Assembly: GCA_000306725.1 (NCBI GenBank)
Contig: CP003083.1
Location: 2,530,042-2,594,041 of the forward strand
From: Methanolobus psychrophilus R15
Lineage (GTDB): Archaea > Halobacteriota > Methanosarcinia > Methanosarcinales > Methanosarcinaceae
Direction of reading: 5' to 3'
Length of the DNA: 64,000 nucleotides
Shown here one piece after another: positions 8,648-10,440 of the stretch. Under the pieces are notes generated by a model. It ran no database searches and was not told the origin of the DNA. It saw only the letters and a list, made by a program, of their open reading frames with translations. Both the position numbers and the translations under genes were made by a program. Position 1 is the first letter of the stretch. Each line of letters starts with the position of its first letter.

Positions 8648-8875
8648 TCAGGGTTTTGGCAGATGGCCGCAGCCGCAGCTCCTTCCAAGGAAGGTTGATA
8701 CCCTGTGCTTGAGCTGGTGGATTTCATCATCGGTCATACTTTCCAGCAAATCCTTGTGCTCTTTTTCGATGTGTTCCAGCATGTTCTTCTCAACATCATC
8801 CAGGCTGTTGCCAATTGCCATGTAATTGCAATTCGCAATACCTACATCTCCGCATTTCACTAGCCTTATTTTCAT
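8648..8875 (-). CDS. DUF1059 family small protein
   Basis: 75 residues. It matches the DUF1059 pattern: a conserved N-terminal Cys (C8) in LVKCGDVG, a second Cys in ANCNYMA, then a helical region DDVEKNMLEHIEKEHKD with histidines. It has an extra C-terminal CGCGH, which may bind a metal. The family's function is unknown. It is monocistronic, divergent from the deformylase-like gene about 200 bases away. Confidence 0.75.
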   Translation of the reverse strand: MKIRLVKCGDVGIANCNYMAIGNSLDDVEKNMLEHIEKEHKDLLESMTDDEIHQLKHRVSTFLGRSCGCGHLPKP

Positions 8876-9042
8876 TATGCATGCTCCGTTTGATCTGATA
8901 AAAACTAATAAAAGTAGTAGGATATAAAGATAGTTTCTCTGCGTATTTCAAAGGCCTTAATGGTTTATTCCGTTTTGTTAGTTCTCTGTCAGAAGGAGTG
9001 GTTGTATGGACCATTGAAAGAGTAATGTCTTTTTCCCTCGCC

Positions 9043-9054
9043 AAATTATTTATC
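9043..9054 (+). promoter_or_regulatory. TATA-box-like element
   Basis: The AT-rich element AAATTATTTATC ends 27 bases before the ATG at 9082. An archaeal TATA box normally lies about 25-30 bases before the transcription start, so the message would be leaderless or nearly so. This supports starting the next gene at 9082 and not at 8998. Confidence 0.35.
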
Positions 9055-9081: not shown

Positions 9082-9630
9082 ATGAAAGTAAGTGACCTGA
9101 GGTCCACGCTGGTAATGAGCGCAAGAGAAGAAGCTGTCTTTAGGAAATTCGATCTTCCACGGGATGCTTTCCATCCGATGCTGCTGTCACTTAAGATCGG
9201 TGGAGCATGGAGCTATTCGGCAGAGCATCTTAAGTGTATCTCAGTAATGCAGGTTCATACAAACTATGATGAGAGAACAAAGACTGGTAATACAATTGAA
9301 GTGATCTACCTGCTGGTGAACCCTGAGACTGTAGCAAAAGAGGGGGTGGTGAACCGTCTGGAGAAATGCGGAAACAAGGAGGAGCGTGTATTGCTCACGC
9401 GGCCATATTCTATAACCATCAGGGCTGAGAGGATAATCGCGGCACGTATCAGCACCGAGAAAAGGAAGATCCTTGTACATGAGGTAGGAGAAAAGGTAGT
9501 GATGTTTACGGGCCCATCCGCGTTCTATGCTGCCCACGAGATGGAGCACCTGGAACATATTGAGATAAAAGGGCTTCCAATATGGGCTTTTAAATATGAA
9601 ACGGCAGATACAGAACCCGGGCCTGTTTAA
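9082..9630 (+). CDS. Divergent peptide-deformylase-like metalloprotein
   Basis: 182 residues from the chosen ATG. In order it shows VIYLLVNPETV (the NPE strand of deformylases), Cys in LEKCGN about 16 residues later where EGCLS would be, the strand TRPYSITIRAERI, and then AAHEMEHLEH, matching the deformylase zinc motif HExDH. So the Cys/His/His metal ligands and catalytic Glu are present, while motif 1 (GxGLAAxQ) is degraded and the Gln seems replaced. Deformylases remove formyl groups from bacterial initiator Met; archaea start with unformylated Met, so the substrate is unclear. The upstream extension to 8998 is hydrophobic and lies before a TATA box, so I excluded it. Confidence 0.6.
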   Translation: MKVSDLRSTLVMSAREEAVFRKFDLPRDAFHPMLLSLKIGGAWSYSAEHLKCISVMQVHTNYDERTKTGNTIEVIYLLVNPETVAKEGVVNRLEKCGNKEERVLLTRPYSITIRAERIIAARISTEKRKILVHEVGEKVVMFTGPSAFYAAHEMEHLEHIEIKGLPIWAFKYETADTEPGPV

Positions 9631-9713: not shown

Positions 9714-10175
9714 CTATTTGACCTCGCCTGTCTCCTTTAGGAATTTCAGCCATCGCCGGGCCTCAGCGACTCTATCACGGGAGAATGTTTCATGGAACTG
9801 CTTTTCCTTTTCTTTGGATGTACCTTCTTTGATCTCCCTCAGGTCCATCACTGTGCGCATGAGTCCTGCAGTTTCATCGAAAAGTTTGTCTGCCTCTTCC
9901 CGTGTAAGCTGTCCGGTCGCCAGTTCCAGCTCGTCTTCTTTCGCTTTTTCATTGATGTATAGAATACACTTATTAATTAGACTCCGGTCCTGTTCATCAA
10001 GTTCCTCTTTCTTTAGCAGCTCCCATACGATACTGTGAAGATTGCACATCTTCCCTTTTATATCGCAATTATAGGGTATCTCTTTACCTACCCAGAAGAG
10101 GCGCGCATGCAGCGCTGCAAGGAGTTGTTTTCTCTCCGTCTCTGTAATAAGTTCGTCTTCATGTGTCTCGTCCAT
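9714..10175 (-). CDS. DUF5788 family protein
   Basis: About 153 residues, hydrophilic and highly charged, mostly helical. It matches the DUF5788 pattern I know from haloarchaea and methanogens: ETERKQLLAALHARLFWVGKEIP near the start, LHSIVWELLKKEEL in the middle, and an ending ARRWLKFLKETGEVK. No catalytic motif is visible and no function is known. I favour the ATG at 10173-10175, which has GGGGG about 5 bases before it, over the ATG 12 codons upstream. It converges with the deformylase-like gene. Confidence 0.6.
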   Translation of the reverse strand: MDETHEDELITETERKQLLAALHARLFWVGKEIPYNCDIKGKMCNLHSIVWELLKKEELDEQDRSLINKCILYINEKAKEDELELATGQLTREEADKLFDETAGLMRTVMDLREIKEGTSKEKEKQFHETFSRDRVAEARRWLKFLKETGEVK

Positions 10176-10440
10176 AACTTCCCCCATAAGATAAGCTGTC
10201 AGACATGGCACAAATATGTTTTGAATACATTCGGAGTGCGGTCATTTATGAAGAGAACTGTGGTGGACAAGCAGCAGGCAGAATAGTGCACTTGTATGGG
10301 CCATAAATAACTATTAATAAGTATAGAACTAAAATAGGTTCAGGTAATTATTTATATAATCTCATATAATTTCTGGTACAGGCTATTTGGCTCCTGAATA
10401 TTTAGGGTGTGGTCTGCTATTGTTGATCTAAGGTGTTGCT

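Follow-up and report, generated by a model that had tools for sequence, protein, structure and literature searches.

In peptide deformylase, the metal is held by Cys90, His132, and His136, Glu133 serves as the base, and the transition state is stabilized by Gln50 of motif I together with the backbone of Leu91. Motif I provides the oxyanion-hole glutamine and forms part of the methionine pocket. The accessible part of PMC5591237 describes type 3 deformylases in Archaea and in trypanosomatid mitochondria, which carry motif substitutions and are mostly weak or inactive; its set was drawn from RefSeq entries annotated as "peptide deformylase". Much the same is stated on type 3 in the accessible part of PMC12690207, which also gives the updated motif definitions applied here and reports that activity does not depend on exact motifs. 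According to the available text of PMC13234167, archaea lack FMT and are generally without a canonical deformylase. Among the literature matches listed, no paper on the family described below was found, and the available portions of PMC2749021 and PMC5452302 contain nothing relevant to it. The family may or may not fall within the set of PMC5591237, and no NCBIfam model names the protein studied here.

The window, a stretch of 64,000 nucleotides from the 3.07 Mb single-contig genome of Methanolobus psychrophilus R15, carries an open reading frame of 182 codons plus stop at 9082-9630, as given by the list of frames and their translations (this gene and the features within it lie on the forward strand). 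We read its product as a divergent deformylase-fold metallohydrolase with a substrate other than nascent formyl-Met chains, a reading that we hold, taken as a whole, with middling confidence. The open reading frame is a real gene, under purifying selection and with an ATG and a TATA-like box that align over ten Methanolobus genomes. The predicted box (9043-9054, forward strand) contains an AT-rich stretch about 30 bases 5' of the aligned ATG in the window and in nine other Methanolobus loci. An alternative start, GTG at 8998, would extend the protein to 210 residues. Because the ATG and the box some 30 bases upstream of it are aligned in all ten loci, ATG 9082 is the better start, and the argument of an earlier sequence-only reading, that the TATA box favors the shorter protein, holds. 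The C124 and H180 of that reading were numbered from the GTG and become Cys96 and His152 when counted from the ATG. Most of the differences from nine orthologues fall at third codon positions, with dN/dS of 0.07 (L031), 0.11 (L032), and 0.08 (L040, whose dS is already 1.7); these three orthologues carry the estimate, as dS is saturated for the other six.

Conservation was followed in an alignment of 40 homologues from seven families (A4), from which the broken or fragmentary copies (G016, G018, G058, G264, G311, and G446) and some intact ones were left out. Twenty-six of its about 174 columns are invariant. The residues identical in 40/40 rows include G40, G41, W43, S44, Y45, E94, C96, R102, R107, P108, H152, E153, E155, and H156. 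Six sites picked by comparison with deformylase (E94, C96, R107, H152, E153, and H156) all lie in invariant columns, with a hypergeometric probability of 6.5e-6 that ignores the general conservation of such residue types. The other cysteine of the protein, C52, is a Cys in 1 of the 40 rows.

Cys90, His132, His136, and Glu133 of deformylase all have invariant counterparts in the family. The segment RLEKC (residues 92-96; 9355-9369), which reads RLE[KR]C in every row, is aligned by hhalign with deformylase EGC and is the counterpart of E-x-C in motif II (EGCLS), with Cys96 as a predicted metal ligand. Exact EGCLS is found in none of the 40 members compared with 10 of 13 reference deformylases, and E-x-C is retained in all 40. 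HEMEH (residues 152-156; 9535-9549), aligned by hhalign with HExDH and invariant as HExEH (40/40), is the counterpart of motif III and would supply two metal ligands and the general base. The full motif III (HExxH-hydrophobic-x-G) is present in 5 of the 40 members, the window protein not among them, and in 12 of the 13 deformylases; HExxH itself is present in all members. Arg107-Pro108 (9400-9405) is invariant and likewise aligned by hhalign, and the counterpart of Arg107 is E. coli Arg102, paired with the motif II glutamate. Arg102 of the window protein (9385-9387), also invariant, is a possible counterpart of E. coli Arg97, an equivalence made by reading the alignment. Upstream of the cysteine, NPE (residues 80-82; 9319-9327) is paired by hhalign with deformylase INPE and is partly kept, with N80 in 23, P81 in all, and E82 in 20 of the 40 rows.

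The sequence-only reading had pointed to Cys and HExxH ligands as in deformylase and had asked for a search of homologues; the cysteine, both histidines, and E153 are paired with their deformylase counterparts and are present in all 40 homologues, with no loss among close relatives. It had also described the same order of elements at nearly the same spacing, with 56 residues from Cys to His against about 42. This observation is confirmed, with NPE kept in part and only its proline universal; Cys and His are 56 residues apart in 40/40 homologues and 42 in 13/13 deformylases. Near the extra 14 residues lies a pair of predicted strands (117-124 and 129-134) between the cysteine and the HExxH helix (residues 117-134; 9430-9483), and the gap in the profile alignment falls at about 119-133.

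Motif I, of the form hydrophobic-G-hydrophobic-A-A-x-Q (GxGxAAxQ), occurs in 0/40 family members and in 11/13 reference deformylases, and a glutamine anywhere in residues 38-54 is seen in a single row of 40. At the approximate place of the motif, the window protein has GGAWSY (residues 40-45; 9199-9216), invariant as GGxWSY (40/40). In the first of two predicted models, it follows a helix (27-39) and runs into a strand (43-47); the helix matches, in order, the one that precedes motif I in deformylase. The equivalence of GGxWSY and motif I is drawn from order and not from an aligned column. The motif had previously been called degraded. A change at this place stands, but the motif is wholly absent, and the invariance of what occupies its position suggests, from sequence, that the site may have been rebuilt under constraint rather than left to decay.

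Because the ligands are kept, motif I is absent, and GGxWSY is invariant, the protein may be understood as an enzyme that is still capable of catalysis, with a pocket remodeled to take a substrate other than nascent formyl-Met chains. We propose that the family is a divergent deformylase-fold protein that hydrolyzes amides with a single metal. Cys96, His152, and His156 would hold this metal, Glu153 would activate water, and the metal loop would be stabilized by Glu94 and Arg107 as it is in deformylase. No counterpart of Gln50 is in sight within residues 38-54 of the alignment, and the proposed enzyme would have a different oxyanion hole and pocket, in which Ser44 or Tyr45 could replace Gln50. 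A formamide or another small amide would be the most likely substrate. Metal binding and catalysis are predicted, an active hydrolase being rather probable; the assignment of a formamide-type substrate class is tentative.

The same losses could instead mean that catalysis has gone and that the deformylase fold is kept as a metal- or ligand-binding protein, a sensor or a structural component, like the inactive type 3 deformylases. Motif I and EGCLS are both absent from all 40 members, and in the accessible parts of PMC5591237 and PMC12690207 type 3 enzymes with altered motifs are mostly weakly active or inactive. On the other hand, Glu153 and the three ligands are invariant in 40 members from seven families, whereas in a dead enzyme the catalytic glutamate should have been lost somewhere; GGxWSY is itself invariant; and the available part of PMC12690207 reports active type 3 enzymes in T. 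brucei. We regard lost catalysis as possible and rather unlikely.

The ligands, the Glu/Arg pair, and the predicted fold would also suit an ordinary peptide deformylase whose substrates are N-formyl-Met peptides, such as those taken up from bacterial neighbors or formed by accident, and exact motifs are not strictly required in bacteria according to the accessible part of PMC12690207. Such an enzyme would have to do without motif I and with an altered Cys-His spacing, in a protein that scores under the PF01327 cut-off and in a genome with no fmt over its cut-off, and we consider this explanation improbable. In the window genome, no PF01327 match was found at E 0.001, and the best fmt match, covering positions 64-192 of 315, reached 69.5 bits where the cut-off is 201.5. 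Initiator formylation is therefore unsupported in this genome, which has no evident use for a deformylase metal site. The earlier premise that archaea leave initiator Met unformylated agrees with the window genome, which shows neither PF01327 nor Fmt over the cut-off, and may fail across the phylum, where one genus (g89 of family f19) carries a def-fmt pair.

In that genus, whose genomes measure 1.6-2.0 Mb, two PF01327 proteins were found in all 8 matching genomes. The gene of the canonical deformylase adjoins a full-length fmt over the cut-off in 4 of 4 genomes examined (G331, G375, G436, and G268). In G331, def and fmt are one base apart (L196:4861-6280), and the deformylase has the motifs GVGLAAPQ, EEGCLS, and HEYDH. 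The pair may be an exception to the absence of initiator-Met formylation in archaea. The second deformylase of the genus (L180-L187) has EGSPC as motif II in 8/8 cases and HEKDHH, and is possibly a paralogue of changed function. PF01327 proteins of another genus (L177 and L178, family f9, genus g61) have WDSCYSF replacing EGCLS, and no fmt match was found in either of their genomes (G316 and G369). In G252, a member of the new family (L089) and a PF01327 protein with WESCMCF (L179) are separated by about 25 kb of the same contig. No frame with an HExDH pattern was found in L176.

Returning to the window protein, a variant of the hydrolase reading would make it an N-formyl hydrolase of methane-metabolizing archaea, recruited from translation to a C1-pathway carrier or protein. 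Its candidate substrates would be formylmethanofuran, formyl-tetrahydrosarcinapterin, or proteins accidentally formylated from these. In two genera, fdhD stands directly after the gene. We see this variant as a long shot.

Sequence similarity to deformylase is distant and shows in profile comparisons. In hhalign, the family and 13 deformylases (A5) were aligned with a probability of 95.5% and an E of 1.5e-8 over 73 columns. In this alignment, NP stands opposite NP, LEKC opposite EEGC, RP opposite the Arg that follows motif II, and HEMEH opposite HEMDH; motif I lies outside it. A deformylase profile gave family members a median of 12.1 bits and a top score of 19.5 (E 3e-5), where shuffled controls peaked at 5.7. 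In the reverse search, the family profile gave deformylases a median of 8.1 bits and a top score of 16.2, where shuffled controls peaked at 7.6. The window protein itself scores 14.7 bits with Pfam PF01327, below the gathering cut-off of 22.8; at E 0.1, the model matches 34 of the 40 members, the best at 1e-4 (7.3e-5 in the 28-member set). Other libraries gave fainter signals. NCBIfam TIGR00079 weakly matches 11 of the 40 members (best 0.0061), and the sole NCBIfam row for the window protein is an unrelated oxidoreductase at E 0.046. PHROGs returned weak deformylase matches (E 0.15-0.2) for two of four proteins. A search of the PDB by sequence yielded no match for the single protein and weak rows for profile A2, of which the best (0.032) is an unrelated chain and deformylases begin at 0.11.

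The fold was predicted for two family members. Model 1 was built with AlphaFold2 from 11 Methanolobus sequences, and both models come from shallow one-genus alignments; A1, one of the alignments of the family, contains one N-terminally truncated row (L033). Model 1 reached a pLDDT of 74.0 and a pTM of 0.74 (the other four models ranged from 70.6 to 37.5 in pLDDT), and model 2 a pLDDT of 74.3. Values under 50 occur at 158-169 in model 1 and at 152-165 in model 2, the latter including both histidines. In the Foldseek search of the PDB with model 1, deformylases take ranks 1-25 and 32 of the best 50 rows, with probability up to 1.00, a best E of 1.3e-3, query TM of 0.27-0.38, and rmsd of 5.0-12.5 Å. 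With model 2, they take ranks 1-6 and 13 of the best 50 rows (best E 8.9e-3). All Foldseek rows of probability 0.8 or more are deformylases for both models, and neither model has a match at E 0.001 or better. VIA-align returned deformylases in its best 50 entries for model 1 (Z 6.6-7.5, rmsd 3.6-6.2 Å, 107-129 residues), counting 3l87, titled only smu.143c, and 9qfr, titled only Def1. For model 2, the best 50 entries are again deformylases (Z 5.5-6.2, rmsd 3.6-5.1 Å, 100-128 residues). For Z values in this range, the tool warns of a possibly mere common arrangement. In BFVD, nothing appeared at E 0.001 or better, and a named deformylase stood at rank 14. The alignments of model 1 with ten E. 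coli entries end at 159->139, 160->140, or 161->141, a constant offset of 20, which would place H152 and H156 on E. coli H132 and H136 if there is no gap near the alignment end; the ends of the model 2 alignments with E. coli are inconsistent.

The structural Z is not decisive alone, and the argument is carried by the agreement among the structural matches and by the sequence profile. The deformylase fold is predicted, and we hold it as very probable. The sequence-only reading proposed structure prediction as a check and a deformylase-like protein as the outcome. Deformylases do rank first for both models, and the profile comparison and the conserved ligands uphold the resemblance, with the qualification that the structural scores are middling. 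HExxH with an upstream cysteine is a short pattern, and together with these middling scores it could suggest an unrelated HExxH metallopeptidase that came to resemble deformylase by convergence. The likeness, however, keeps one order from the NP strand through E-x-C and R-P to HExxH, and the high-probability Foldseek rows are all deformylases, which makes convergence quite improbable.

Pfam would name the protein differently, as a retropepsin-like "ATP-dependent zinc protease" (PF05618). This model matches all 40 members, with a best value of 1.5e-13, more strongly than PF01327 does; the window protein scores 26.4 bits alone against a cut-off of 27, and 27.4 with its frame neighbors in the genome scan. 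Against this, DTGA is present in 8 of 8 PF05618 proteins of relatives (A3) and D[ST]G in none of the 40 family members, and the match of the window protein begins at profile position 25, about at the DTGA motif. Comparing the family with A3, which is shallow and made of eight close sequences, hhalign gave 1.3%, and HMM searches between the family and the PF05618 proteins stayed under the shuffle maximum both ways. The PF05618 model may contain relatives of the deformylase-like family, which would explain the match. No retropepsin is found among the best rows listed by the fold searches, which excludes nothing. The strong Pfam score remains the main counter-result, and with the profile comparison against the relatives' PF05618 proteins empty, PF05618 as the true family is disfavored as extremely improbable and the match is probably misleading.

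The family is patchily distributed. A search with the single protein found a match in 43 of 149 relatives, its own genome counted, and in 22 of 26 genomes of the same genus, among which the gene is decayed in G018 and split in G016. In the latter, two pieces (L006 and L198) are separated by about 40 kb of a single contig, which suggests a large insertion or a rearrangement. Of 392 genomes sampled from the phylum, 64 matched the profile of 28 members at an E of 0.001. They belong to 13 of 136 genera, and their count takes in the broken copies of G016 and G018 and the genomes with fragments only (G058, G264, G311, and G446). A tree of 43 members mostly tracks family and genus labels, with 11 label changes against a minimum of 10 and with families f26 and f27 mixed, and descent therefore appears largely vertical with many losses. 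The gene is dispensable, as it is patchy and is broken in some genomes. One member sits in a genome of 5.75 Mb. Scanning genome contigs with the single protein gave 10 loci, all of them Methanolobus. At E 0.01, neither plasmids nor phages gave a homologue, none was found among 11 candidate stretches in viral contigs, and PADLOC gave no match for the two proteins searched.

In the window, the gene is surrounded by genes for a DJ-1/PfpI protein, DUF1059, DUF5788, a TPR protein, a CitMHS-type transporter, and an FAA hydrolase. The DUF1059 and DUF5788 genes (8651-8875 and 9717-10211, reverse strand), of unknown function, are common to nine and six Methanolobus loci, respectively. Neighbors vary by lineage, and genomic context was rejected as a guide to function because no neighbor is general across the family. 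The product of fdhD serves formate dehydrogenase-type enzymes. In 4 of 4 loci of genera g5 and g6 (L054, L164, L057, and L165), fdhD lies downstream on the same strand, with its protein family confirmed in L054 and L057; this neighborhood is only a lead. A class V aminotransferase gene, cysteine desulfurase-like, precedes the gene in L054 and L164. In 6 of 26 loci, a class I tRNA synthetase of the W/Y type, taken to be TyrRS (by Pfam in one locus), and a gene read as Thg1 are found upstream. Elsewhere, a gene with an aminoacyl-tRNA editing domain adjoins the gene (L053), a NUDIX gene overlaps its start (L153), and an ABC-type ATPase read as SufC comes after it (L056).

The family is archaeal and well conserved, has no specific name in the libraries searched, and preserves the catalytic metal site of an enzyme that is an essential drug target in bacteria. 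For this protein, the "zinc protease" label that follows from the Pfam match is suggested to be wrong. An active formamide hydrolase of this kind would show a role for the deformylase site without formyl-Met, and might reveal a formylated metabolite or protein modification in methanogens.

Compared with known systems, the family shares with peptide deformylase (Def; PF01327, TIGR00079) the order and identity of the Cys/HExxH ligands, the catalytic Glu, the glutamate of motif II and the arginine that follows this motif, and the NP strand; its predicted fold has deformylases as best matches, at middling scores. It differs from Def in being without GxGxAAxQ and EGCLS, in HExEH versus HExDH, in a spacing of 56 versus 42, and in a window protein that falls under the PF01327 cut-off. 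PF05618 Zn_protease resembles the family in that its Pfam model matches 40/40 members, and is unlike it in that the family has no DTGA and no profile similarity to the eight PF05618 proteins of relatives. The type 3 deformylases (Archaea, trypanosomatids, and some bacteria), compared here by their description in the accessible literature, are like the family in being relatives of deformylase that are altered in both motif I and motif II and are said to occur in Archaea.
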